This document shows positions 44,427-56,821 of a DNA stretch of 56,997 nucleotides, piece after piece. The stretch's first letter is position 1; every line of letters begins with the position of its first letter. A program made the translations under genes and the position numbers. A model generated the notes under the pieces. That model ran no database searches. It was given only the letters and a program-made list of their open reading frames with translations, and was not told where the DNA came from. Source of the DNA: Polyangium fumosum (GTDB taxonomy: Bacteria; Myxococcota_A; Polyangia; Polyangiales; Polyangiaceae); contig NZ_SSMQ01000081.1 of NCBI RefSeq assembly GCF_005144585.1, forward strand, positions 1 to 56,997. Direction: 5' to 3'.

Positions 44427-44822
44427 GTGACAAGAACGGACAAAAAAGTAAGGTACTCACCCGAAAGTAAGTCCCCGGCACATCAGGCCGCGCACGACAC
44501 GACCGAGGCGCTCCAGATCCTCGAAGGCCGCTGGAAAATGGTCATCATCTTCCATCTCTTCGTGCAGCCCGTGATGCGCTTCTCCGAGCTCGAGCGCGCG
44601 ATTCCGGAGGTCTCGCAGAAGATGCTCATCCAGCAGCTCCGCGACCTCGAGGCGGACGGCGTCGTCGCGCGCACCGTGTACCCCGAAGTGCCGCCCAAGG
44701 TCGAATACAGCCTCACCGTCCGGGGCAAGGCGTTATGCCCTGCGCTGGATGCATCGCTGAAGTGGGCCTCGTCGCCCGATGCGCCCAAGCGGAACGACGG
44801 TCCCGTGCTCCCGAGCCCATGA
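44427..44822 (+). CDS. HxlR-family transcriptional regulator
   Basis: 131 residues from GTG at 44427. Winged-helix HxlR layout: ALQILEGRWKMVIIFHLF, MRFSELERAIPEVSQKMLIQ, DLEADGVVARTVYPEVPPKV and EYSLTVRGKALCPALDAS. These proteins lack a large ligand domain and often respond to redox or aldehyde stress through Cys; one Cys is near the C-terminus (GKALCPAL). Divergent from the SDR by 83 bases, so it probably controls it. Confidence 0.9.
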   Translation: MTRTDKKVRYSPESKSPAHQAAHDTTEALQILEGRWKMVIIFHLFVQPVMRFSELERAIPEVSQKMLIQQLRDLEADGVVARTVYPEVPPKVEYSLTVRGKALCPALDASLKWASSPDAPKRNDGPVLPSP

Positions 44823-44859
44823 TCTTCCAAACACCGGACCCGCCGTGATAGGGGACATC

Positions 44860-45678
44860 ATGACGACCGACGAAAAGGTGACCTTGAGCGAGGAGAAAGA
44901 GACCCTCCTCATCACGGTGTACGGCAAGGCGGAGGAGAGCCGCCTGCCCGATTCCCTTCTGCGGGATCGCTTCGCCGCGGACGCGATCCGGCGGATCAAC
45001 TACGATTTCTCGAAGCTGAAGGTCCGCCGGGACGACATGATCTCCCTGGCGATACGCGCGCACCTCCTGGATGGCTGGACGCGCGAATTCATCACCCGCC
45101 ACCCCGACGCCACCGTGCTGCATCTCGGCTGCGGGCTCGACAGCCGCGTGTTCCGGGTCGATCCGCCCGCGACCGTCCGCTGGTTCGACGTCGACTATCC
45201 GGAGGTCATCGCGCTGCGCCGTCGCCTCTATCCGGAGCGCGCCGGGTATACCCTCCTCGGCTCGTCGCTCACGGCCCCGCAATGGCTCGACGAGGTGCCG
45301 GCGGATCGCCCGGTGATGATCGTCGCCGAGGGGGTCCTCCCGTATCTCCGCGAGGACGAGGTGCCCCGCCTCTTTGGTCGTCTCACGGCGCATTTCCCGG
45401 CGGGCGAATGTGCGTTCGACTGTTACAGCCGCTTCGGCGTGCGGCTCCTCCGTCGCCACCATTCGATCAAGGCGACCGGCGCGTCCGTGCACTGGGGCCT
45501 CGACGCTCCCCACGAGCTCGAAGTTCAGGTCCCGAAGCTCGTGTTCCTGACGGAGGTCTCGAGCCACGATCCGGCGCAGCTCGCCAGGATGTCGAGGGTG
45601 GCGCGCCTGAGCTACCGCGTCTTCATGGCGATTCCGGCGCTCAAGAAGGCCGGGCGGATCGTGCGTTACCGGTTTTGA
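44860..45678 (+). CDS. SAM-dependent methyltransferase, LCM/TcmP-like
   Basis: 272 residues from ATG at 44860. SAM site TVLHLGCGLDSRVFRVD, followed by RWFDVDYPEVIALRRRLY and MIVAEGVLPYL, the pattern of leucine carboxyl methyltransferase and polyketide O-methyltransferase families. It is convergent with the microviridin-type MdnC gene (13-bp overlap at the 3' ends), so it could be a tailoring enzyme, but nothing proves that. It follows the HxlR gene by 37 bases and may instead be part of that unit. Confidence 0.84.
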   Translation: MTTDEKVTLSEEKETLLITVYGKAEESRLPDSLLRDRFAADAIRRINYDFSKLKVRRDDMISLAIRAHLLDGWTREFITRHPDATVLHLGCGLDSRVFRVDPPATVRWFDVDYPEVIALRRRLYPERAGYTLLGSSLTAPQWLDEVPADRPVMIVAEGVLPYLREDEVPRLFGRLTAHFPAGECAFDCYSRFGVRLLRRHHSIKATGASVHWGLDAPHELEVQVPKLVFLTEVSSHDPAQLARMSRVARLSYRVFMAIPALKKAGRIVRYRF

Positions 45679-46664
45679 GGGACCTCGCGGCGCGCCCCCG
45701 GGACGCCGACGAGCACGTCGACGAGGGCCGCGACCATCGGGTGATGTGGCGGGTTTGCTTCGAGCCAGAAGAACTCGCCGGCGGGGTTCACTTCGAGCAG
45801 CACGTATTCGCCCTCCGGCGTCACGATGAAATCGGCCGCGCCGTATTGCATCCCCACGGCCTCCTGGTACCGGCCGAGCGCGTCCTCGACGTGCTTCGGC
45901 AGGTCGTGGTGGCGCCACGCATCGATCATCGCGAGGCCCTTGTTGCGCCAGTCCACGTCGGCCCCCTCGAATCGCTGCGAGTCGATGCGCGCGGCGAAGA
46001 CCTTCGTGCCGAACACGGTCGCGCGCACCTCGTACGCTTTTTCGACGCGCTCCTGGAAGTACATCGGGCAAAGGCGGAGTTGTTCGAGTCGGTCCATCGT
46101 CTCGGGGCGCACCTCGGTCGTCATCATCACCTGGAGCTTGCCGTCGTCCTTCACGAACGGCTCCGCGCTCAGCAATTTCACGATGGCGCCCTTGGGGCAG
46201 CTCGACAGGAAGGCGCGCGCCTTGGCCGGATCGTTCGTGCCGAGCGTGCGGGGCGTTCGAATGCCCGCCTCCCGAAAGATGCGCTGGTGCAGCGGCTTGT
46301 GGTCGCTCGCCCGGACCCGCGCGAAGGCGTCCACCTTGAATGCGGGGCAGGCGGCGAGCACGCCCTGGAGGAACCGCTCCGACTCCGCGAGGGCCATCCG
46401 CTGGTGGCCCGGGTGCATCTTCTCCGGAAAACCGACGGGCTTGTGATAACGGCGCCCCCAGATCGCGTCGTCTTTGCCGATCGCGTGACCATTCCACAGG
46501 AACGACTCGCCCTCCGGCTCCTGGTGGAACGAGATCGTCGCCTTCACCGGGAAATCGTTCAGGTGGAAGACGACGGGCTCGGCGCCGCGGCCGCGAATTT
46601 CTTCGGCCACGCGCTCGATGAAAGGAGGGGCGTCGTTCTGGTGCGTGAGAATGAGGACGTTCAT
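45666..46664 (-). CDS. mdnC: Microviridin-type ATP-grasp ligase, MdnC/MvdD-like
   Basis: 332 residues. Expected to form ester (lactone) links between Thr/Ser hydroxyls and Asp/Glu side chains in the precursor. The sequence follows cyanobacterial MdnC: LRLCPMYFQERVEKAYEVRA, VFAARIDSQRFEGADVDWRN, GAADFIVTPEGEYVLLEVNP and AGEFFWLEANPPHHP, including the Mg/ATP residues of the ATP-grasp core (Glu and Asn in LLEVNP). Start ATG overlaps the MdnB-like stop (ATGA). It is the last gene of the cluster and meets the methyltransferase gene tail-to-tail. Confidence 0.92.
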   Translation of the reverse strand: MNVLILTHQNDAPPFIERVAEEIRGRGAEPVVFHLNDFPVKATISFHQEPEGESFLWNGHAIGKDDAIWGRRYHKPVGFPEKMHPGHQRMALAESERFLQGVLAACPAFKVDAFARVRASDHKPLHQRIFREAGIRTPRTLGTNDPAKARAFLSSCPKGAIVKLLSAEPFVKDDGKLQVMMTTEVRPETMDRLEQLRLCPMYFQERVEKAYEVRATVFGTKVFAARIDSQRFEGADVDWRNKGLAMIDAWRHHDLPKHVEDALGRYQEAVGMQYGAADFIVTPEGEYVLLEVNPAGEFFWLEANPPHHPMVAALVDVLVGVPGARREVPQNR

Positions 46665-47614
46665 GGTTCGTCGCCTTCCCGGAGGAGGGTTTCTGCGATC
46701 GATGCGGCGATCGGGAGCCCAAGCTCGGCTTCGAGCATCCCCCACTCGCCGGTGGGGTTCACTTCGAGGAAGACCGTCTCGCCGTCCGGCGTGACGATCA
46801 AATCGAGGCAGCCCTGCCGGAGCCCGAGGCGCCTCATGAGGTTGTTTAGGTTCGCTTTCGTCGCCCTATCGAGGACGTGCGGCTTCCAGGAACCTGCCTG
46901 GGAGAAGCGCCAATCGGCGCCACACGCTTTCCCGTCGAGGGCGCCGGTCCAGGCCGCCCCGCCCGCCCAGGCGACGCGCAGCTCCAGGGCCTTCGGGATC
47001 TCCTCCTGGAAGATCATCGGCCCCCGTCGCAATGCGTCGAGCTGCGTGAGGTCCTTGGGACGCAAACGACGTGTCGGGAACGCGCGCCCCCCTCGCATTC
47101 CGTAGTCGAGCGGCGCGTGCAATTTGCACACGACACGCCCCGCGTGCGCCTCGAAGAGCGCGCGCACCGCATCCGGATCCGAGGTGAACCGCGTGTCGGG
47201 GATGCGGAGCCCGCATTCCCGCGCGAGCCGGAGCTGGAGCAGCTTGTTCTCCGCGGCGTGCACGCGCTCGGGCGCGTCGACCCAAAGGCCTTCGAGGAGG
47301 GCGAGCGCCCCGAAAAAGAGGGCGTGCGCCTCCCGGTTGACGGTCTCCTTCTCCGCCGCCGCCATTCCTTTCGCCTCGATGCGCGGCCATGCGCGCCAGA
47401 GCCAGATGGCATCCGGCCGCACACGCTCGCCGCGGACCCAGACCGTACCGGGGTCTTCGGCGGCGAGCGAGGCGCCGAACGTCCCCTCCTCGAAGAGGCG
47501 ATCGGTATCGAGGCGATAGGGGCGCGCGCCGCGGAGGCGGAGCTCCTCCGCGACACGCTCGGTGACGAAGGGCTCTCTCGCGTGGGAGAGCAAAAGAACG
47601 ACCCGTGAAGCCAT
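46661..47614 (-). CDS. mdnB: Microviridin-type ATP-grasp ligase, MdnB/MvdC-like
   Basis: 317 residues from ATG at 47614; a GTG at 47623 is an alternative. Predicted to install the amide (lactam) bond between Lys and Asp/Glu. It matches MdnB in VHAAENKLLQLRLARECGL, GPMIFQEEIPKALELRVAW and the MdnB-type ending VFLEVNPTGEWGMLEAELGL. Asp and Glu residues of the metal site (DLIVTPDGETVFLEVN) are intact. Together with the overlapping MdnC-like gene it makes the full graspetide ligase pair. Confidence 0.92.
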   Translation of the reverse strand: MASRVVLLLSHAREPFVTERVAEELRLRGARPYRLDTDRLFEEGTFGASLAAEDPGTVWVRGERVRPDAIWLWRAWPRIEAKGMAAAEKETVNREAHALFFGALALLEGLWVDAPERVHAAENKLLQLRLARECGLRIPDTRFTSDPDAVRALFEAHAGRVVCKLHAPLDYGMRGGRAFPTRRLRPKDLTQLDALRRGPMIFQEEIPKALELRVAWAGGAAWTGALDGKACGADWRFSQAGSWKPHVLDRATKANLNNLMRRLGLRQGCLDLIVTPDGETVFLEVNPTGEWGMLEAELGLPIAASIAETLLREGDEP

Positions 47615-47696
47615 GGGCGTCACCCGATCAAAGCAAACGAGGTCGTCGCGTTGCGATGTTCACGCGGGTCCATGGCTCCTCGGGATCGTTCGCCTG

Positions 47697-47906
47697 TCAG
47701 AAGTAATCGCAGGAAGGCTTGTACGTGTAACAATCGTCCGCGTCGGACGGGTACTTCTTGGTGCACTCGCTGTCGAGGCAATGGTACGTCGGGGCAGGAT
47801 TGGTGCCGCCGCTCGTGTTCATCTCGGTCGACTGCGTCTGCTCGTCGTCGACCAGCAGGTGCGCGAAGAGCGGGGTCATGTTTTCTTCGTCGTTCGGCAG
47901 GGACAT
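47697..47906 (-). CDS. mdnA: Microviridin-type graspetide precursor, Cys-rich variant
   Basis: 69 residues; ATG at 47906 with a good AAGGAGAA site. The leader carries MSLPNDEENMTPLFAHLL, aligning with the cyanobacterial MdnA leader (PNDQQ and PFFARFL helix that binds MdnC). The core T49-K-K-Y-P-S-D-A-D-D58 matches TxKYPSDx(E/D)(E/D), the microviridin tricyclic depsipeptide motif, with T49, S54 and K51 as donors. Position 57, normally Glu, is Asp; 58 is Asp too. A second degenerate core T61-Y-K-P-S-C-D67 follows. Four Cys (43, 48, 59, 66) lie in and around the core. A GG at 33-34 might mark a cleavage site. It is probably a protease inhibitor like other microviridins. Confidence 0.88.
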   Translation of the reverse strand: MSLPNDEENMTPLFAHLLVDDEQTQSTEMNTSGGTNPAPTYHCLDSECTKKYPSDADDCYTYKPSCDYF

Positions 47907-47998
47907 GGGGGTTCTCCTTGGATTCGGTGAGCGTCGAATCTCTCGACATCCAGCCTTACGCGCCTGCCTGCTCGGGTTGGACAGGTCCTCGATTTTTT

Positions 47999-49780
47999 TC
48001 AACGATAGCCAGCCGCCTGGAGACGGAAGAGAGCCGCATAACGTCCCTCCGCGCCGAGGAGCGCGTCGTGGTCGCCACGCTCGGCGACGCGCCCGCCGTC
48101 CATCACGAGGATCTCGTCGGCGAGGCGGACCGTGGAGAATCGATGGGACACGAGGATCGCCATGCGCCCCTCCGTCTCGGAGCGGACCCGCGCGAAGAGC
48201 GCGGCCTCCGCGGCGGGATCGATGGCGGCGGTCGGCTCGTCGAAGAGGAGCAGGTCCGCTTGTTCGCGGAGGAAGGCCCGCGCGAGGGCGAGCTTTTGCC
48301 ATTCGCCGCCGGAGAGCTCGACGCCGCCGGGGAACCATTTGCCGAGCCGCTGATCGAGTCCCTGCGCGAGCTTTTTGACGATCGGGCCGGCCTCGCTGCG
48401 CGCGAGCGCGCGCCTGATCCCCTCGTCCGGCACGGCATCCTCGGCGGCGCGCGGGGCCACATTGTCGCGGACCGGGAGCTGGTACCGGACGAAGTCCTGG
48501 AACACCACGGCGAGCCGCGCGCGGAGGGCCTCGGGATCCCAGGCGGCGAGATCCCGCCCGTCGAGGAAAATGCGCCCCTCGGTGGGCTCGTAAAGGCCGG
48601 CGACGAGCTTCAGGATCGTCGATTTCCCGGAGCCATTCTCGCCGACGAGCGCGAGCTTTTTCCCCGGGGCGAGGAAAAGGTCGACGCCCAGGAGCGCAGG
48701 GCGCTTCGCGCCCGGGTACGTGAAGCCGACGTTCTCGAAGCGCAGGCCTCGTTCGTCCCGCGCGCGGGCTGCGGGGAGGAGCGGTCTTTTCGGAGGGACC
48801 GGCAGATCGAGAAACCCATAAAGGTTCCCGAGGTACTGCTGGTCCATGTAGAGCCCTCGCAAGCCCCCGAGCGCCTGCTTCAGCGCGCCGTCCCCCTGCT
48901 TGAACGTGACGAGCGCGAGGCCGAGATCCCCGACGGTGAGCGCTCCTGCGAGGGCTCGAACCGCCACGGAGACGTAGACCGCATAAAAGAGAGCAAGCGC
49001 GACGAGGTCCGCGCCGAGGCCCACGAGGAGCCGCCTTCGCGCGAGCGCCTGATCCTCCTCGAACACGAGCGAAAAGACCCGCCGCGCGCGTTCGAGGAAC
49101 GTCGGTCCCGTGCCGAAGAGGCGCACCTCCTTGGCATGGTCGTCGCGGGTGAGCACCTGCTCCAGATAGGCTTGCTCCCGCGCCTCGGTGGCCCGTCGAT
49201 TCTGGAGGCGGAAGATCGCGGTCGCGAAGCGGGTCTCCGTGAAAAAGCTCGGCAACGCGGCGAGGAGGATCGCGAGCGCGCAGAGCGGCGAGAATCGAAA
49301 GAGGAGCGCCGCGGAGCCCGCGAGGACCGCGAAGGCTTGGACCATCGCGAAAAAGCCGGCGAGCAGCGCGACCGGACGACCGACGGCCTCGCGCCGCGCC
49401 CGCGTGAGCGCGTCGTAAAAGCCTGCGTCCTCGAAGCAGGCATAAGGAACGGCGATCGCCTTTTCGAGGATCGCCCGCTGAAGGAGAAAGCCGAGCGTGA
49501 GGCGCAGGCGCGCGGTCGCGAACTGGTTCAGGCCTCCGGCGACGTACGTGAGGAAGAGGAGCACCGCCTCCGCGACGATACCGACGAGCACGACCTGCCT
49601 TTCGCCGCGGGCGACGCCGTCGAGGACACGCCGGGCGTACCAGGCCATGCCGGTCGGCGCGGCGCCGGCGAGGAGGGCGGCGAGGACCATGGACGCGAGG
49701 GCGAAGGGGCTCGCGCGCCACGCGAGCGCGATCGTGCGTGAAAGCCGGGATCGAAGGGAGGAAGTGGGGGGCTCGGGCAC
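47999..49780 (-). CDS. ABC exporter (fused TMD-NBD) of the microviridin-type cluster
   Basis: 593 residues from GTG at 49780 (with GAGG upstream); starts further 5' would run into the divergent lipoprotein gene. An N-terminal membrane domain with six helices (MVLAALLAGAAPTGMAWYA, VVLVGIVAEAVLLFLTYVAG, LVALALFYAVYVSVAVRALA and others) and a C-terminal ATPase: Walker A GENGSGKST, signature LSGGEWQ, Walker B LLLFDEPT, H-loop VSHR. There is no C39 peptidase domain, so the leader is removed by another protease. Similar to MdnE-type exporters of microviridin clusters. The precursor starts 92 bases downstream. Confidence 0.9.
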   Translation of the reverse strand: MPEPPTSSLRSRLSRTIALAWRASPFALASMVLAALLAGAAPTGMAWYARRVLDGVARGERQVVLVGIVAEAVLLFLTYVAGGLNQFATARLRLTLGFLLQRAILEKAIAVPYACFEDAGFYDALTRARREAVGRPVALLAGFFAMVQAFAVLAGSAALLFRFSPLCALAILLAALPSFFTETRFATAIFRLQNRRATEAREQAYLEQVLTRDDHAKEVRLFGTGPTFLERARRVFSLVFEEDQALARRRLLVGLGADLVALALFYAVYVSVAVRALAGALTVGDLGLALVTFKQGDGALKQALGGLRGLYMDQQYLGNLYGFLDLPVPPKRPLLPAARARDERGLRFENVGFTYPGAKRPALLGVDLFLAPGKKLALVGENGSGKSTILKLVAGLYEPTEGRIFLDGRDLAAWDPEALRARLAVVFQDFVRYQLPVRDNVAPRAAEDAVPDEGIRRALARSEAGPIVKKLAQGLDQRLGKWFPGGVELSGGEWQKLALARAFLREQADLLLFDEPTAAIDPAAEAALFARVRSETEGRMAILVSHRFSTVRLADEILVMDGGRVAERGDHDALLGAEGRYAALFRLQAAGYR

Positions 49781-49895
49781 GGGGGCGAGGACCTCGAAAT
49801 CGAGAACACGAGGCCTTACGCCGCGAGCCGCGAGGATTGGACACAGGACCTCGACAGCCACGATGCCCGGAGCGGTTCGTGGTAACGTCGGCGAC

Positions 49896-51251
49896 ATGCG
49901 TAGGCGAACTTGTGTTGTTTCGTGGATGGGGGTCGTCGCGCTCGCGGCTGCGATGGGCTGCGGCGGGACAGTCAAGGACGTGGATGCCACATCGGCGGGC
50001 CCTGGCGGGGCTGGCGGGGCTGGCGGAGGCGGGAGTGGCGGGGCCGGGGCAGGGGGGAGCGGGGGAGGGGACGGACCGGTATGTGATTTCTTCCTCCCCG
50101 TGGGAGCGCCGGTGGTCCTCGATCCTCCGCTGGACCAGTCCGCGCTTTCGCCGAAGCTCGTGCGATCAGGCCTCGACCCGAAGACCGCGGTGCTCGCCTT
50201 CATGGGCGTGCCGGTGAACGGGCCTGCGGGCGCTTTGAATGACATTCACCTCCGCTTTCTTCTGGACCCGTGGAGCACGTGGCCGCCGGTCGAGGGGTCG
50301 AATCACGTGCTGGCCGACGCGCAAGGGCCCTTCGTGGTATCGGAAGGCGCGGCCATGGAGGTTGCGTTGCTCCGCGACACGGGCACAGGTCCGATGCCGT
50401 ATACGGTCGTGCCCGCCCAGCTCATGATTCCCAAATCCGCAAACCTCCCGCCGGACGCGACCCACGCGGCGCTCCTGCGAATGCACCCCGGGGGGCACGT
50501 CCTCGGATACGGGCGCCCCCACGCCGGGAACACGATCGAGCTCCTCGTCGGATTCGGTCGCTACAGTGGAAAGCTGCCGAGCGTGGAGGGATTCACGCCC
50601 GTCGGTTGCACGAAAGACGAAGTGCTGATGGACGCCGTCCCCACGGAGAAAGGCACGCTCGTCGCCTTCGCGAGCAATGACGATCCGGCGAGCGCTTCCG
50701 GCTGCACGGGCTCGCTCTCGAACGCAAAACAAGTCGTCATCGCCCGCGTCATCGATGGCAGCGCGGTCGTCGCCGAGCTCGCCGCGTCGACCCCCGACGG
50801 TCCGTCGGAGATCCAGGGGCTCGGCATGGCAGGCCGCAGCGACGGCGCGTGGGTGGCCTTTGGGCGCGCGGGATGGATCGAAGCGACGGCCACGATCCAG
50901 GCGCAGCGGCTCGACGCGGCAGGGGCCTTCGTGGGAGAGCCGTTTTTCTTGGCGGGGTCGAGTGATCTCAATCCGGCGACGCTTGGCGTCGGCCGCCTGA
51001 ACGACGATCTCGTCGTCGCGTGGTCCACCGGCGCAGAGACCTCCACGCGGATCGAGGTGCGGCGCCTCTCCACGTGGAGCACGGGCAACCCCGAGGCGAC
51101 GATCGAAGAAACGCAGAGCGTGTCCCAGCCGATCGCCGTCCTCGGCTCCCCCACGGCGGACGCCGTGCTCGTCGCGTATTCGGTCGTCTCGGAGGTGGAT
51201 CAGACCTCGCGCATCCACCTCCAGCGGTTCGATTGTGGGGTCGACCTCTGA
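49896..51251 (+). CDS. Gly/Ser-spacer lipoprotein of unknown function
   Basis: 451 residues. Lipobox AMGC near residue 22, then Gly-rich spacer (about 32-60). The body has no domain that I recognise; about 250-400 shows repeated strands (VVIARVIDGSAVVAEL, AWVAFGRAGWIEATATIQA, DDLVVAWSTGAETSTRIEVR) suggesting a beta-propeller-like fold. Divergent from the ABC exporter, 115 bases apart, and upstream of the protease gene. Not obviously part of the microviridin cluster. Confidence 0.8.
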   Translation: MRRRTCVVSWMGVVALAAAMGCGGTVKDVDATSAGPGGAGGAGGGGSGGAGAGGSGGGDGPVCDFFLPVGAPVVLDPPLDQSALSPKLVRSGLDPKTAVLAFMGVPVNGPAGALNDIHLRFLLDPWSTWPPVEGSNHVLADAQGPFVVSEGAAMEVALLRDTGTGPMPYTVVPAQLMIPKSANLPPDATHAALLRMHPGGHVLGYGRPHAGNTIELLVGFGRYSGKLPSVEGFTPVGCTKDEVLMDAVPTEKGTLVAFASNDDPASASGCTGSLSNAKQVVIARVIDGSAVVAELAASTPDGPSEIQGLGMAGRSDGAWVAFGRAGWIEATATIQAQRLDAAGAFVGEPFFLAGSSDLNPATLGVGRLNDDLVVAWSTGAETSTRIEVRRLSTWSTGNPEATIEETQSVSQPIAVLGSPTADAVLVAYSVVSEVDQTSRIHLQRFDCGVDL

Positions 51252-51359: not shown

Positions 51360-52844
51360 ATGAATTCGTTCAATTTCACGCAAGCCGACGGCTCGTCACG
51401 GGCCGTCGTTGGATATCGGTATGCGCCGCCCAAGGCCGCCGCGAAGCGTTACGTCGCCGGTCGTGGCAATGTCTCGCGGCTCCCCCCCAAGGTCGACCTG
51501 CGGCCTTTCATGTCGCCGATCGAGGACCAGAGCGACACGAATAGCTGCGCCGCCAACGCGACGGCGGGCGCCTACGAGTACCTCGTCAAGCGCCACCTCG
51601 GCGAAGACGCCTACGACGTCAGCCGCCTCTTCATCTATTACAACGGCCGCTACGTCGACGAGCCCGAGAACATCGAGGACGAGGGCAGCTACCTGCAATC
51701 CGTCATCGCGGGCCTCAAGGAGTACGGCGCGTGTTCGGAAGAGACCTGGACCTTCGACCCGGAGGCCGTCAACGAAGAGCCCTCGGAGGAAGCCTATGAG
51801 GAGGCCAAGCAGTTCCTCATCGAGGACACCGAGCTCGTCCCGACGGACCTGGAGGCCTGGAAGACGGCGATCGCGGAGGGCCACCCGATCATCTTCGGGG
51901 TCAAGCTCTTCTCCTCGTTCGACAAGCACAAGAAGGCGGGCCTCGTGCCGGTCCCGACCCCGCGCGAGACGGGGCGCGAGAGCCACGGCGGCCACGCGAT
52001 GCTCTGCGTCGGCTACTCGGATCCGGACCAGGTCTTCATCGTCCGCAACTCCTGGGGGCCGGAGTGGGGCGACAAGGGATATTGCTACATCCCTTATCGG
52101 TACCTCATGAACGAGGACTACAACTTCGGCGATTCGTGGATCATCAAGCGCATCGACGTGCTCCCGCCCGATGAGGAGACGTGGTCCGAGGATGACGAGT
52201 CCGTGCTGGAAGACGTCGCCGGCGTCCTTGCCCAGCTCGACGAGGAGGAATACACGGGGCTGCTCGATCGAATGGGCGATGTCCCGCTCGACGTGCGGCT
52301 CTCGCTCCTGTTCTTGCGCGCGGCGGGCGCGGACGGGGACCTCGCGGATAGCGAGATTCAGGCCACGGCCGAGCACATCCTGCCCGTGCTGGAGCAGCTC
52401 GGCTCGCGGCAAAGCGCGGAGAAGGTGCTCCGCAATGCGCTGCGCCGCCTCGACGACGAGCGGCTCGTCGAGGAGACCGTCGAGATCCTCGGCGAGGTGT
52501 TCTCGCAGGAAGTCCTCGCCTCGATTGCGTCCGAGCTCCAGGAGATCGTCGGCTCGGACGACGACGTCTCCGAGGAGGAGCAGGCCTTCGTCGATTCCGT
52601 CGTCGAGCACTGGCAGATCGAGCCCGCGGGGGACGAGGGCGACGAGGACGAAGAAGAAGAGGAAGACGACGAGGACGAGGAAGGCGAGGACGAAGAAGAA
52701 GAGGAAGACGACGAGGAAGGCGAGGACGAAGAAGAAGAAGAGGACGAGGGCGACGAGGACGAAGAAGAAGAAGAGGACGAGGGCGACGAGGACGAAGAAG
52801 AAGAGGACGAGGGCGACGAGGACGAAGAAGAGGAAGACGAGTAG
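51360..52844 (+). CDS. Papain-like (C1A) protease with TerB-like domain and poly-acidic tail
   Basis: 494 residues from ATG at 51360. No signal peptide was seen. The C1A domain (about 45-265) has Gln57 and Cys63 in IEDQSDTNSCAANATAG, His212 in ESHGGHAMLCVGYSDP and Asn230 in FIVRNSWGPEWGDKGY, so the catalytic set is complete. About 300-420 is TerB-like (LLFLRAAGADGDLADSE, EIVGSDDDVSEEEQAFVDS). The last about 68 residues are almost all Asp, Glu and Gly in repeats. The propeptide is short. It likely acts in the cytosol or exits by a non-Sec route. The acidic tail could bind Ca2+ or basic partners. Confidence 0.87.
   Translation: MNSFNFTQADGSSRAVVGYRYAPPKAAAKRYVAGRGNVSRLPPKVDLRPFMSPIEDQSDTNSCAANATAGAYEYLVKRHLGEDAYDVSRLFIYYNGRYVDEPENIEDEGSYLQSVIAGLKEYGACSEETWTFDPEAVNEEPSEEAYEEAKQFLIEDTELVPTDLEAWKTAIAEGHPIIFGVKLFSSFDKHKKAGLVPVPTPRETGRESHGGHAMLCVGYSDPDQVFIVRNSWGPEWGDKGYCYIPYRYLMNEDYNFGDSWIIKRIDVLPPDEETWSEDDESVLEDVAGVLAQLDEEEYTGLLDRMGDVPLDVRLSLLFLRAAGADGDLADSEIQATAEHILPVLEQLGSRQSAEKVLRNALRRLDDERLVEETVEILGEVFSQEVLASIASELQEIVGSDDDVSEEEQAFVDSVVEHWQIEPAGDEGDEDEEEEEDDEDEEGEDEEEEEDDEEGEDEEEEEDEGDEDEEEEEDEGDEDEEEEDEGDEDEEEEDE
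52627..52841 (+). repeat. In-frame tandem repeat encoding an Asp/Glu/Gly tail
   Basis: Coding minisatellite inside the protease gene with units of about 30-33 bases (pattern gacgaggacgaagaagaaga then ggacgagggc), giving GDEDEEEEDE-type repeats. Length variation between strains is likely. Confidence 0.85.
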
Positions 52845-52866
52845 CCACCTCTGAAGCCCCCTCCAG

Positions 52867-52891
52867 AAAAGTGAACGCCTCGTTCACTTTT
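52867..52891. promoter_or_regulatory. TetR operator 1 or terminator hairpin
   Basis: Perfect 11-bp inverted repeat AAAAGTGAACG / CGTTCACTTTT with 3-base spacer. It shares the GTGAAC/GTTCAC core with operator 2. It begins 22 bases after the protease stop and ends in T4, so it may also act as a rho-independent terminator of that gene. Confidence 0.65.
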
Positions 52892-52910
52892 CGCCTGCCC
52901 ATCCTTGACG

Positions 52911-52947
52911 TCTCTCTAAAGTGAACGTACGGTTCACTTTAGAGAGA
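52911..52947. promoter_or_regulatory. TetR operator 2 (long palindrome)
   Basis: Perfect 16-bp arms (TCTCTCTAAAGTGAAC / GTTCACTTTAGAGAGA) around a 5-base centre, ending 4 bases before the TetR GTG. It covers the ribosome site and the region downstream of a TTGACG -35-like element at 52904, so the repressor would block its own expression. Confidence 0.72.
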
Positions 52948-52951
52948 CGAC

Positions 52952-53572
52952 GTGGCAAGACATCTCAACGAACAGGTGCGCGAGCGGGTCTTTCGCGCGG
53001 CCGAGGAGGTGTTTGCCCAGGCCGGGTACCAGGGCGCGACGATGGCGGCCATCGCCACGCGCGCCGGGGTCTCGACGGGCAACATCTATCGGTATTTCGA
53101 GCACAAGGACGCGCTGTTCTACGCGGTGCTCCCGGATGAATTCGCGGCGCGGTTCCTCCGGCTCACGCGCAGACGCGTGCAAGCGCTCGTGCGCGCGCCC
53201 GCGCCCACGGAGCTCGACGCGGGCGCGGAGGAGCGCGGCGAGGAGCTGCTCCGTTTCTGGATCGAGCATCGATGGAAGATCATCACGCTCCTCGATCGGG
53301 CCCAGGGATCCCGGCACGAGGGGTTCGCCGAGGCGTTCGTGCGGGAGCTCATGCGCCCCTCGCTCGCCAGGCTCCGCAAAGACGCGCCGCAAAGGCGCGT
53401 GAGCCCCGTCGCGCGTTTCGTCCTCCAAACGATCTTCCGCAACACGGTCCGTACGATCGTGTCGATCCTCGAATCCCACGAGGACGAGGCGCAGATCCGC
53501 AAGGCCTTTCAAGGGTTCTGGAGTTATCAGCTCGCCGGTTTGTCCGGCTTCGCCAAATGGGTGCAGTCATGA
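52952..53572 (+). CDS. TetR-family transcriptional regulator
   Basis: 206 residues from GTG at 52952. N-terminal TetR DNA-binding domain: VRERVFRAAEEVFAQAGYQG, MAAIATRAGVSTGNIYRYFE and HKDALFYAVLP. The C-terminal ligand domain has no close similarity I can name. It overlaps the amidase gene by ATGA, so the amidase and later genes are probably in its regulon, controlled through the two upstream palindromes. Likely an autorepressor. Confidence 0.9.
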   Translation: MARHLNEQVRERVFRAAEEVFAQAGYQGATMAAIATRAGVSTGNIYRYFEHKDALFYAVLPDEFAARFLRLTRRRVQALVRAPAPTELDAGAEERGEELLRFWIEHRWKIITLLDRAQGSRHEGFAEAFVRELMRPSLARLRKDAPQRRVSPVARFVLQTIFRNTVRTIVSILESHEDEAQIRKAFQGFWSYQLAGLSGFAKWVQS

Positions 53573-54993
53573 GCCAAGATCTCTGGGAGCTCGACGCGGT
53601 CGGGCAGGCAGCCCTCGTGCAATCCGGCGAGGTGAGCGCGCTCGACCTCGTGGACGCGGCCATCGCGCGTATCGAGACACTCGAACCCGTGGTCCATGCG
53701 ATTGCGAGCGTGGACTTCGACGCGGCCCGGGCGAAAGCCCGATCGCGGCCGACCGGCCCCCTCGGCGGCGTGCCGTTCCTCCTCAAGGACCTGCTCGCGT
53801 ATCCCGGGCACAAGCTCACGATGGGCTCGCGGCTCTTCCGCGATCACGTCGCGCCGGCCGGGTCGCCTTATACCGAGCGGTTCGACGCCGCGGGGCTCGT
53901 CACGCTCGGAAAAACCACGACGAGCGAGTTTGGCCTCCTCGGCAGCACGGAGACGCTCCTCGCCGGGATCACCCGCAATCCGTGGAACCTCGCGAAATCG
54001 GCGACGGGCTCGTCCGGCGGCGCCGCGGCCGCGGTCGCGTGCGGCATGGTGCCGATGGCGCATGCGAGCGACGGCGGAGGATCGATTCGCATCCCCGCGT
54101 CCGCGTGTGGCCTCTTTGGCTTCAAGCCGGGGCGCAGGCGGTGCGTGTCCACGGGGTACGCCGACGCCTTCGAGCTCCTCATCGAGCATTGCGTGAGCCG
54201 GAGCGTGCGCGACAGCGCGCTCTTGTTGTCATTGACGGAGGACCCGGGCGCCAAACCCGCGGTCGGATACGTGGATCGCCCCCTCGATCGAACCTTGCGT
54301 ATCGGCGTGTACACGACGACGCTCCGCGGCCGGGCGCCCGATCCCGACGTGATGCATTCGCTCGCGCAGGCGATGCGGCTCTGCGCCGACCTCGGGCACG
54401 AGGTGGTGGAAGCGCCGCCGCCGCCCGTCGACGGCGCGTCGCTCTCCGACGCGTTTTTCACGCTGCCCGGCAGCGGAATGCACGACCTCGCCCGCACCAT
54501 GGAGAGCATGCTCGGTCGACCCGTCGGCGAGGACGACCTCGAGCCCTTCACCCTCGCGCTGATCCACCATGTTCGCAGCTTGCCCGAGGGCGCCCGCGCG
54601 CGCGCGGAGGCCGCGTTTGCCCACGCGTCCGCGCAAATGCTCTCCTACATGGCGAGCTACGACGTTCTCCTGTGCCCGACCCTCCCCGTGGCGCCGTACG
54701 ACCTCGGCACGCTCGCGCCGGGGCTCGATCGCGAGCTGCTCGTTCGCCGCACGGAGGTGCTCGCGGGGTACACGCCCATCTACAGCATCGCGGGTGTGCC
54801 GGCCATGTCCGTGCCGCTCGGCTCCTCGGAATCGGGTTTGCCGGTCGGCAGCCATTTTGCAGCGAAGCTCGGACAGGAGGCGACCCTGCTCGGCCTCGCC
54901 TATCAGCTCGAAGAGGCCGCTCCGTGGCGGCACCGCTGGCCCGCGGTGACGCGCGCCGCGCGGGAGGGAAGCGTATCCTCGCGACCGTGCTAG
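53569..54993 (+). CDS. Amidase (amidase-signature family)
   Basis: 474 residues. Ser-cisSer-Lys triad: Lys73 in LGGVPFLLKDLLAYPG, Ser148 in SATGSSGGAAAAVA and Ser172 in DGGGSIRIPASAC. Other signature features: GKTTTSEFGLLGSTETLLAG and FGFKPGRRR. Hydrolyses amides (fatty amides, aryl amides or peptides; not resolved). Directly coupled to the TetR gene and 13 bases before the 2OG-Fe gene, so part of a metabolic operon with an inducible small-molecule substrate. Confidence 0.91.
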   Translation: MSQDLWELDAVGQAALVQSGEVSALDLVDAAIARIETLEPVVHAIASVDFDAARAKARSRPTGPLGGVPFLLKDLLAYPGHKLTMGSRLFRDHVAPAGSPYTERFDAAGLVTLGKTTTSEFGLLGSTETLLAGITRNPWNLAKSATGSSGGAAAAVACGMVPMAHASDGGGSIRIPASACGLFGFKPGRRRCVSTGYADAFELLIEHCVSRSVRDSALLLSLTEDPGAKPAVGYVDRPLDRTLRIGVYTTTLRGRAPDPDVMHSLAQAMRLCADLGHEVVEAPPPPVDGASLSDAFFTLPGSGMHDLARTMESMLGRPVGEDDLEPFTLALIHHVRSLPEGARARAEAAFAHASAQMLSYMASYDVLLCPTLPVAPYDLGTLAPGLDRELLVRRTEVLAGYTPIYSIAGVPAMSVPLGSSESGLPVGSHFAAKLGQEATLLGLAYQLEEAAPWRHRWPAVTRAAREGSVSSRPC

Positions 54994-55006: not shown

Positions 55007-55765
55007 ATGCCGCCTGCCGAGTTCGAACCGCCGATCACCGCGCCTTCCGACATCGTGGAAGTGGTGCGGCGGCAGGGGTTTGCCGTCGCGAGCTCGTCCT
55101 TCCTTCATGGCCTCACCGGCGCGCCGCGCGTGGACTTCTCCGCGCTCGCCGCGGAATGGGACGACATGCCGCTCGACCCGTACCTCAAGGACGGCGGGCG
55201 TTACCGGCGGCGCCGGCATGCATCGTTTCTCGTCGACGAAGCTTCCTGCCAGCTCGTCCCGCACCGCGCGCACTTTCAGCCCCTGCAATACAATGCGCTC
55301 CACGGCGGCATGGAGCGCTGGTTCGAGCCGATGCGGCAAACCCTGATCGGGCAGCCGTTCTGGTCGACCTTGCTCACGGGCCTCGGGCGGCTCTGCTCCG
55401 ACATCACGCGCCCGGCGCCCTGGTACGTCGAGGCACACCAGTTTCGCATTGACACGAGCGAGGGAATCGGGCGGCCCACGCCGGAGGGGGCGCATCGCGA
55501 CGGCGTCGACTTCGTCGCGTTGTTCCTCATCGAGCGCCAGGGGATTCGCGGCGGCGAGACCCGCGTCTTCGACGCGCGGGGCCCGCAGGGGATCCGCTTC
55601 ACGCTCACCGAGCCCTGGTCGTTCCTCTTGCTCGACGACGAACGCGTGATCCACGAGTCCACGCCGATCCAGCCGCTCCTCGGCGGAGAATCGGGGGCGC
55701 TGCCGTACGGACATCGCGATACGCTGGTCCTCACGTACCGCAGGAATGGGTTTCAGGACCGGTGA
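55007..55765 (+). CDS. 2-oxoglutarate/Fe(II)-dependent dioxygenase (PF10014 type)
   Basis: 252 residues. It contains the HxD iron motif in TPEGAHRDGVDFVALFLIE and a distal His in ERVIHESTPIQPLL, with an Arg in TYRRNG for 2-oxoglutarate. The family (2OG-Fe_Oxy_2) includes free-amino-acid hydroxylases such as isoleucine dioxygenase. It follows the amidase by 13 bases, hinting at hydroxylation of an amino acid or amide substrate made by the neighbour. The N-terminal about 60 residues are less conserved. Confidence 0.84.
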   Translation: MPPAEFEPPITAPSDIVEVVRRQGFAVASSSFLHGLTGAPRVDFSALAAEWDDMPLDPYLKDGGRYRRRRHASFLVDEASCQLVPHRAHFQPLQYNALHGGMERWFEPMRQTLIGQPFWSTLLTGLGRLCSDITRPAPWYVEAHQFRIDTSEGIGRPTPEGAHRDGVDFVALFLIERQGIRGGETRVFDARGPQGIRFTLTEPWSFLLLDDERVIHESTPIQPLLGGESGALPYGHRDTLVLTYRRNGFQDR

Positions 55766-55816
55766 ACCTGCGCGCGCCTCTTGACAGGGGCGGCCATATT
55801 CGATTCTCTTGGGTTC

Positions 55817-56821
55817 ATGGGCGCGGGTCACGCAACGGGAGATCTACCGGCGGCTTATGCGCTGCACCTGGTCGATCTCGCGGCGCGGTGGGGCGTCGCG
55901 CCCGACGAGCTGCTCTCCGGGCTCGGGCTCACGCGTGAATCCTTGACGAACCCGGCGGCCCGGATTTCTCTGGAGACCACGGGCACGCTCGTCAAGCGCG
56001 CGATGAAGCTCACCGGGGAGCCGGGGCTCGCGTTTTTCATGGGCCTCCAGATGCGCCTCTCGTCGCACGGGTATCTCGGCTTCGCGGCCATGACGGCCGG
56101 GACGATCCGCCAGGCGATCGAGCTTGCCATTCGTTTCGTGCCGACACGAACGACGGCGCTCGCGTTTCACCTGCACGTCGAGGGGGAGACGGCGTCCCTC
56201 GTCTTCGAGGAGCGCGCGCCCCTCGGCGAGGCGCGGGAGTTCATCCTCGGCGCGCTCATGATGGGCATTGCCCGGATTGGCCGGGACATCACGAAAAAGG
56301 AGCTCGTGGGGGACGCGGACCTCGCGTTCGAGGCGCCTCCCCATTTCGAGCGGTTCGCGCACCTCGCGCCGGGCAAGGTTCGTTTTGGGCAGCCCTCGAA
56401 CCGCATCATTTTCGCCTCCTCGGTGCTCGACTTGCCCCTCGACATGGCCGATCCCGTGGCGATGCAGCTCGCGCGCGAGCAATGCGAGCGGGAAATGCAG
56501 GCCCTCGGCCAGGACGATCGGACGGCGGCCAAGGTCCGCGAGCTCTTGCCGCTTTCGGAAGGGTATCGCTCGCTCGAAGAGATCGCGCAGCACCTCGGCG
56601 TCTCGCCGCGCACGTTGAAACGGCGCCTCGCGGACGCGGCCACTTCCTATTCCGACATCCTCGACGAGCTGCGGCAGGAGCGCGCCATGCTCCTCCTCCG
56701 GGACGAGAGCCTCTCGCGCGAGCAAATCGCCGAGCGGCTCGGCTACTCCGACGCGGCGAACTTCGCGCGCGCCTTCCGGCGCTGGACGGGCCGAACCCCC
56801 GGCATGCTCCGCAAACCCTGA
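55817..56821 (+). CDS. AraC-family transcriptional regulator (OruR/ArgR-type N-domain)
   Basis: 334 residues from ATG at 55817; a TTG at 55781 in the same frame reads as a promoter -35 (TTGACA) rather than a start. The N-terminal ligand domain (about 1-210) has the layout of the arabinose-binding-like domain of OruR/ArgR regulators (FMGLQMRLSSHGYLGFAAMT). Two HTH motifs at the C-terminus: SLEEIAQHLGVSPRTLKRRL and SREQIAERLGYSDAANFARA, then FRRWTGRTPGMLRK. Fourth gene in the TetR-amidase-dioxygenase run, possibly an activator. Confidence 0.88.
   Translation: MGAGHATGDLPAAYALHLVDLAARWGVAPDELLSGLGLTRESLTNPAARISLETTGTLVKRAMKLTGEPGLAFFMGLQMRLSSHGYLGFAAMTAGTIRQAIELAIRFVPTRTTALAFHLHVEGETASLVFEERAPLGEAREFILGALMMGIARIGRDITKKELVGDADLAFEAPPHFERFAHLAPGKVRFGQPSNRIIFASSVLDLPLDMADPVAMQLAREQCEREMQALGQDDRTAAKVRELLPLSEGYRSLEEIAQHLGVSPRTLKRRLADAATSYSDILDELRQERAMLLLRDESLSREQIAERLGYSDAANFARAFRRWTGRTPGMLRKP

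Follow-up and report, generated by a model that had tools for sequence, protein, structure and literature searches.

The stretch of DNA considered here, hereafter the window, comprises 56,997 nt of contig NZ_SSMQ01000081.1 of the predatory soil myxobacterium Polyangium fumosum, whose genome assembly holds 13.0 Mb in 201 contigs. A preliminary description of this DNA had placed a microviridin-type (graspetide) gene cluster at 45.67-49.78 kb, with genes for an exporter, a precursor, an MdnB-like and an MdnC-like ligase following one another on the minus strand, and this layout holds, all four reading frames being open. The exporter (47999-49780) is an ATP-binding cassette (ABC) protein combining permease and ATPase, identified from its open reading frame (ORF), Pfam and NCBIfam, with 593 amino acids when read from a GTG whose position as the exact start is uncertain. 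It is followed by the graspetide precursor of 69 amino acids (47697-47906; ORF, NCBIfam model NF033738, alignment and class-wide profile search), an MvdC/MdnB-type ATP-grasp ligase (46661-47623), a lactam former by homology, and an MvdD/MdnC-type ATP-grasp ligase (45666-46664), by homology a lactone former, both recognised through Pfam, NCBIfam, PDB and a tree. The two ligase genes overlap, as had been described, by four bases (ATGA). On the same strand an AAGGAG (47914-47919), read directly from the sequence, ends seven bases before the ATG of the precursor and is probably its ribosome-binding site, whereas scans for promoters and terminators and for RNA folding ahead of the precursor gave nothing above shuffled sequences.

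Both ligases match the MvdD pre-ATP-grasp domain of Pfam above its cut-off. For the MvdD-type protein the top NCBIfam model is MvdD (TIGR04184, E 1.8e-82, 277 bits) and the top PDB match is 5ig9 (E 4.7e-60); for the MvdC-type protein they are MvdC (TIGR04185, E 1.6e-80, 271 bits) and 7m4s (AMdnB, E 1.7e-59), the latter followed by 5ig8 (E 1.6e-57). We take 5ig9 and 5ig8 to be MdnC and MdnB, respectively, the PDB records themselves reading 'ATP grasp ligase'. A tree built jointly from 46 ligase rows places each window ligase on its own MvdC or MvdD side (100/100). The tree program flagged CdnC and the genomes G537 and G509 as long rows, with a possible false join involving G537, and most PDB and Nostoc rows as unlike in composition; the tree was kept with these rows.

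The precursor matches the NCBIfam microviridin/marinostatin precursor model (NF033738) at 26.3 bits (E 9.8e-6), and the leader, PNDEENMTPLFAHLL, and core, TKKYPSDADD, that the preliminary description had recognised are both confirmed. The leader carries the helix motif PLFAHLL (residues 12-18; 47853-47873, this and the following features all on the minus strand), the counterpart of PFFARFL, in which P12, F14, A15, L17 and L18 are invariant over ten aligned rows. Gly33-Gly34 (47805-47810) is a possible cleavage site that is not strictly conserved, a Gly-Gly pair standing ahead of the core in nine of 11 precursors, the window's included, and lacking in those of the genomes G402 and G536. Comparison within the family reveals next a conserved extension, PTYHCLDSEC (residues 39-48; 47763-47792), with Cys43 and Cys48 ahead of the cage. 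The microviridin cage motif itself, TKKYPSDADD (residues 49-58; 47733-47762), has Lys50 at its specificity position according to the comparison of cores, and the alignment shows that the protein ends in a tail restricted to Polyangium, CYTYKPSCDYF (residues 59-69; 47700-47732), with a second cysteine pair, Cys59 and Cys66.

A profile of ten aligned precursors (A2), searched against 317 genomes of the class Polyangiia at E 0.01, matched 16 of them, 11 with the window's precursor type (the window's genome included): five Polyangium genomes, one of another genus of the same taxonomic family (G402), four of a single genus of the family f13 and one of the family f11. Other matches were in four genomes of the genus g259, which have a different core type, and in G427 at E 0.0064; apart from these 16, a match in G008 (E 0.0046), 26 residues inside a 346-residue frame, was taken as chance. 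An MvdD-like match is present in 41 of the 317 genomes, and longer loci were compared for those with two ligases and those scoring best; in one of them, G537, no pattern-matched precursor stands next to the ligase. A scan of genome contigs with the MvdD-type ligase, which reaches close relatives only, returned just Polyangium sp. 6x1 and Polyangium sp. y55x31, whose records are counted once, together with G433 and G368. Plasmids searched with the precursor gave nothing up to E 1, none of 30 pattern matches in viral contigs was confirmed, and a phmmer search of PDB with the precursor found no match to E 10, although with a core this short the test is a weak one.

Across the ten aligned rows 21 columns are invariant, and PTxHCLDSxCTKKYPSDxD is retained in 11 of 11 precursors, spanning three families of the class, with variation at Tyr41 (Thr in one of 11), Glu47 (Pro in two of 11) and residue 56. 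The leader helix reads PLFAHLL or PLFAYLL in the five Polyangium members and PFFAHLL in the six others. Because the codons of Ser46 and Ser54 switch between AGC and TCC/TCG among the members, it is the protein and not the DNA that selection holds. The TxKxPSD microviridin motif, as described, excludes the ten residues preceding the cage (PMC7823629); here those residues are approximately as conserved as the cage itself. On the evidence of these alignments, the unusual part of the cluster is what the preliminary description overlooked, namely a conserved cysteine extension that marks a distinct precursor type shared by a small group of myxobacterial clusters.

The comparison set for this extension consisted of 30 TxKxPSD cores, which a script extracted from ten loci with two ligases outside the family: five of g259, one each in G509, G535 and G540, and two on Nostoc plasmids. 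Immediately ahead of the TxK motif all 11 family members have a cysteine and none of the 30 other cores does; at the specificity position lysine is found in all 11 and in six of the 30. All 11 cores fit TxKxPSD followed, one position on, by two acidic residues. That the amide position has Asp58 instead of Glu was considered as a novelty and rejected, since among the 30 other cores the acidic pair is DD in three and ED in 13. Between the leader motif and the stop codon the number of cysteines is four in the five Polyangium precursors and two in the six others, never odd: the six have Cys43 and Cys48 only, to which Polyangium adds Cys59 and Cys66. The simplest reading, drawn from conservation only, is that one disulfide would be common to the family and a second would be found in Polyangium, both forming after export. 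The specificity of microviridins is set by position 5, and in microviridin J, which binds trypsin with a dissociation constant of 0.68 uM, Arg5 enters the S1 pocket of the protease (PMC7823629). Because Lys50 sits at this position, a trypsin-type protease is the best guess for the target, and the product is predicted to be a trypsin-type inhibitor with three side-chain rings and one or two disulfides, the rings, the disulfides and the activity alike being putative.

The ligases are grouped in the same way, the cysteine-bearing family forming one group among the MvdC-type enzymes (11 rows, 100/99) and one among the MvdD-type enzymes (10 rows, without G534, 100/99). Those of the six non-Polyangium members share 42-53% identity with the window's. 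In G534 (contig C2:11252182-11253143) the ligase match lies in two adjacent pieces (profile positions 1-166, then 174-320), and the gene may be split or frameshifted. Judged by homology, the cluster is a microviridin (graspetide group 1) cluster of a known kind and with ordinary gene content, the unusual features of which are its cysteine extension and its own ligase clade. The ligase types, leader, core motif and conserved gene set all support the earlier proposal of a microviridin-type cluster in a myxobacterium.

Of six genomes of the genus in the class search, five carry the cluster. The sixth (G370, locus L088) keeps both flanks and lacks it: the alignment with the window breaks off after 45675 and resumes at 49854, the two flanking blocks being separated by about 150 bases, and this empty site gives the extent of the cassette as approximately 4.2 kb (45676-49853). 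In G292 (L017, 16 kb) the sole shared part is window 45686-49758, the four genes standing in other surroundings; when 16 window ORFs were tried against these 16 kb, matches to the four cassette genes only were obtained. The cassette hence occupies two different genomic places within the genus and, because of the empty site and the relocated copy, its four genes are to be regarded as one unit of approximately 4.2 kb that is gained or lost as a whole.

Four neighbouring genes were considered as cluster members and rejected, each lying in an alignment block that flanks the empty site in G370: those for a methyltransferase of the LCM family (44779-45678), a putative lipoprotein, so read from its N-terminus (49896-51251), a papain-TerB protein (51384-52844) and a 2-oxoglutarate (2OG) dioxygenase (55007-55765). 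The methyltransferase has no counterpart at E 1e-10 in the entire G292 genome, in which window 51384-54993 finds short scattered matches only. The papain-TerB protein, encoded on the plus strand, is a fusion of a papain-family (Peptidase_C1) and a TerB domain with a very acidic tail of Asp/Glu repeats, and its gene adjoins the cassette in G339, G368 and G433 and is also found at the empty site of G370. The 2OG-Fe dioxygenase (PF10014), on the plus strand as well, is encoded near an amidase (53494-54993) and an AraC-type regulator (55781-56821). In G339 approximately 870 additional bases (L015:5335-6206) separate the methyltransferase from the MvdD-type ligase, between which there are almost none in the window.

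Exporter homologues (42-96% identity) stand beside nine of the ten other family clusters, the 3230-base contig of G402 ending first; in the non-Polyangium members whose exporter shares a contig with the other genes (G351, G531, G533, G534 and G536), it comes after the ligases and not ahead of the precursor. As had been pointed out, the window exporter has no C39 domain: Pfam finds only domains of the ABC-transporter and ATPase type, an NHLM-type exporter model aligns to it from profile position 148 only, and in the exporters of G292, G351, G531, G533, G534 and G536 there is likewise no 150-residue stretch ahead of the membrane part. The reported lack of a GNAT acetyltransferase is also borne out among the ten neighbouring ORFs scanned with Pfam, which cover the ORFs of the window in part. 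However, the deduction that leader removal and N-terminal modification must differ in this cluster is unwarranted, as many microviridin clusters are without GNAT and C39. Acetylation is described as optional, and class I microviridin clusters are mostly without a leader peptidase gene; the sole characterised enzyme, the M1 metalloprotease NosP, cuts class I microviridin leaders in Nostoc and is encoded 0.8 Mb from the cluster (PMC13039773). Because a missing cluster protease and a missing GNAT are common for microviridin clusters, there is no sign of a new mechanism. For the exporter MdnE an alternative role as a scaffold for the ligases has been proposed (PMC7823629).

Class II/III microviridins are marked by a Gly-Gly leader and a C39 exporter. 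A Gly-Gly pair stands before the core in the window, as in nine of 11 family members, C39 is absent from the cluster's exporter, and two C39 exporters are encoded elsewhere in the genome. At L023:4830-9588 (contig C123) one strand encodes in a row a radical SAM protein, an ORF of 388 residues that matches nothing in Pfam and an ABC exporter of the C39 type, and this gene row may be a second cluster for a ribosomally synthesised and post-translationally modified peptide; at L022:6111-10263 (contig C171) a C39-type ABC exporter and two HlyD-like proteins are encoded on the same strand.

With the gene set, its homologies, the precursor family and its invariant positions, and the borders of the cassette established by these comparisons, it is likely that the four genes constitute a self-contained microviridin cassette, in which the ligases build the cage and the exporter, a leader protease from outside, disulfides and a trypsin-like target protease account for the remainder. 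In characterised pathways activation of the ligases falls to the leader helix, and the MvdD-type enzyme forms two esters, the MvdC-type enzyme one amide (PMC13039773; PMC7823629). By homology, from which the rings, the order of steps and the export are taken, the PLFAHLL helix would recruit and activate both ligases, the MvdD-type enzyme would make the esters Thr49-Asp55 and Ser54-Asp57, the MvdC-type enzyme would next make the amide Lys51-Asp58, and the peptide would exit via its dedicated ABC exporter. The leader would be cut by a protease encoded outside the cassette. Outside the cytoplasm Cys43 and Cys48, and in Polyangium only also Cys59 and Cys66, would then oxidise to disulfides, and Lys50 would be offered to trypsin-like serine proteases at their S1 pocket; for the disulfides and the trypsin-type target it is conservation that suggests them. 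The calculated monoisotopic mass is 7773.28 for the full precursor and 7719.24 after loss of three waters; for residues 35-69 it is 4040.65, falling to 3986.62 with three waters lost and to 3982.59 with two disulfides in addition.

At the level of the genes, the ATP-grasp proteins might be RimK-like or peptide-tagging enzymes rather than graspetide ligases, with a small ORF beside them by chance. Their scores below the NCBI equivalog cut-offs and their weak matches to the RimK family are what such an origin would predict, but it is hardly credible: the E-values for RimK are approximately 75 orders of magnitude weaker than the best MvdC/MvdD ones, so that the better fit to non-graspetide ATP-grasp enzymes that the preliminary description had named as decisive against its own proposal is not seen, and precursor and both ligases occur together in ten of 11 genomes, the eleventh, G536, having precursor and ligases on two contigs with the ligase contig ending inside MvdC. 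As far as sequence goes, the PDB matches and the class-wide precursor search refute the RimK-like or peptide-tagging origin. A different question is how the leader is removed. If either of the two C39 exporters with genes elsewhere in the genome, and not another protease, cut the leader behind Gly33-Gly34, it would make use of the pair found in nine of 11 precursors; such cleavage is nonetheless doubtful, considering that two members manage without Gly-Gly, that the genome has ten Peptidase_M1 matches, the family of NosP, and that the window's leader has T at -4 and E at -7 ahead of the pair, where double-glycine leaders have hydrophobic residues.

The extension itself admits of other explanations. 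It could be a further ligase substrate, receiving a fourth ester that might join Thr40 or Ser46 to Asp45 or to some other acid, with the cysteines as bystanders or reduced, as would suit the invariance of Thr40, Asp45 and Ser46 in all 11 precursors and the separation of these ligases from the other microviridin ligases compared. This is improbable in view of the characterised microviridin ligases, which work on the TxKxPSD cage (PMC7823629; PMC13039773), and of the cysteines, which match the possible donors and acceptors in invariance and are moreover paired. Even less is to be said for cysteine and histidine binding a metal ion or a redox partner without disulfides, the peptide being a metallophore or signal and not an inhibitor. 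An invariant HC-x4-C, with His42 adjoining Cys43, has the look of a metal site, yet the cage motif with lysine at the specificity position is intact in 11 of 11 and the delimited cassette consists of four genes with no further one, which makes this very unlikely. Newly predicted graspetide precursors have been noted to contain conserved cysteines, which were interpreted as potential donors in thioether formation by radical SAM enzymes (PMC8939145); a radical SAM enzyme is absent from the four-gene cassette.

Several observations weigh against the disulfide-bearing trypsin inhibitor proposed here. The precursor stands only 0.3 bits above the NF033738 cut-off of 26, and both ligases fall short of the equivalog cut-offs set by NCBI (277 of 475 bits for MvdD and 271 of 425 for MvdC) and are divergent, although such a cut-off is a naming threshold and no chemical definition, the MvdD one being passed by five of the 317 class genomes. 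The Polyangium rows, in addition, are on long stems in both ligase groups (0.89 and 1.06 changes per column). Because the ligases are divergent and these stems long, a changed ring pattern is possible. The additional conserved residues Thr40, Asp45 and Ser46 might be used for further esters. Cysteines near cores are not unique to the family, since three of the 30 other cores have one elsewhere within the 12 residues ahead, and the six comparison cores with lysine at the specificity position show that this residue is not its preserve either. Finally, even cysteine counts in 11 related sequences are suggestive and no proof.

In animal Kazal and plant Bowman-Birk inhibitors Cys-Thr-Lys occupies P3-P2-P1 of the reactive loop. 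It is conceivable, although we hold this only tentatively, that two means of stiffening a protease-inhibitor loop, the microviridin cage and disulfides at P3 and further out, were fused in a single myxobacterial lineage that converged on this arrangement, the second disulfide having been gained in Polyangium alongside fast change in both ligases. The long Polyangium ligase stems go with changes in the Polyangium core, DD for DE and the tail with two further cysteines. The resemblance to these trypsin inhibitors would be one of working principle and in Cys-Thr-Lys only; the ring chemistry differs, and the phmmer search of PDB with the precursor found no homology. If true, the fused-cage reading would describe a disulfide-locked graspetide. 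In any event, the locus offers a compact four-gene cassette for a predicted caged peptide whose specificity position is occupied by lysine in each of the 11 members found, a natural test case for the combination of disulfides with graspetide rings as a way to raise inhibitor affinity, and divergent ligases whose substrate preference is comparable with that of the cyanobacterial ones.

A text-only search, with figures outside its reach, found no publication with CTKKYPSD or longer strings, and among the papers listed that combine graspetide or microviridin with disulfide no such peptide is named in titles or in the abstract openings shown. In the text available from PMC7823629 the one disulfide passage concerns trypsin's own, and the main text of PMC13097080, as available, contains neither 'disulfide' nor 'cysteine'; the family may be among the 21,584 predicted graspetides of its supplement. 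The preliminary description called such peptides normally studied in cyanobacteria; they are best known there, but myxobacterial microviridin clusters are already in print. One has been reported in Sorangium (PMC5934393), and conserved 'microviridin' types are given for Archangium, Cystobacter and Sorangium, the entry for conserved unknown clusters of Polyangium in the same source reading 'none' (PMC12224551).

The closest known counterparts are the cyanobacterial microviridins (mdn/mvd), with which the cluster has in common the MvdC and MvdD ligases, a PFFARFL-like leader helix, a TxKYPSD core and an ABC protein. It differs from them in the PTxHCLDSxC that precedes the cage and, in Polyangium, the 11-residue tail with two more cysteines, as well as in the PLFAHLL/PFFAHLL form of the leader, the single core and the lack of any GNAT seen. 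The class III microviridin precursors of Bacteroidetes (chitinoviridins) likewise have longer cores and a Gly-Gly motif; by description only their C-terminus is microviridin-like (PMC13039773), whereas in the window the cage is internal, Gly-Gly is a feature of nine of 11 members and the exporter is without C39. A further counterpart is found in the two-ligase clusters of g259, probably Sorangium, which belong to the same bacterial family and have both ligase types and cores resembling TLKYPSD or TMKYPSD. Four of the five g259 loci compared have two precursor genes with two cores each, the fifth starting inside a precursor at a contig end. In contrast to the family described here, the g259 precursors have no cysteine immediately ahead of the cage and a leader with an unusual end, EDQKR-x-RTGVKAG, and their ligases fall in another clade.

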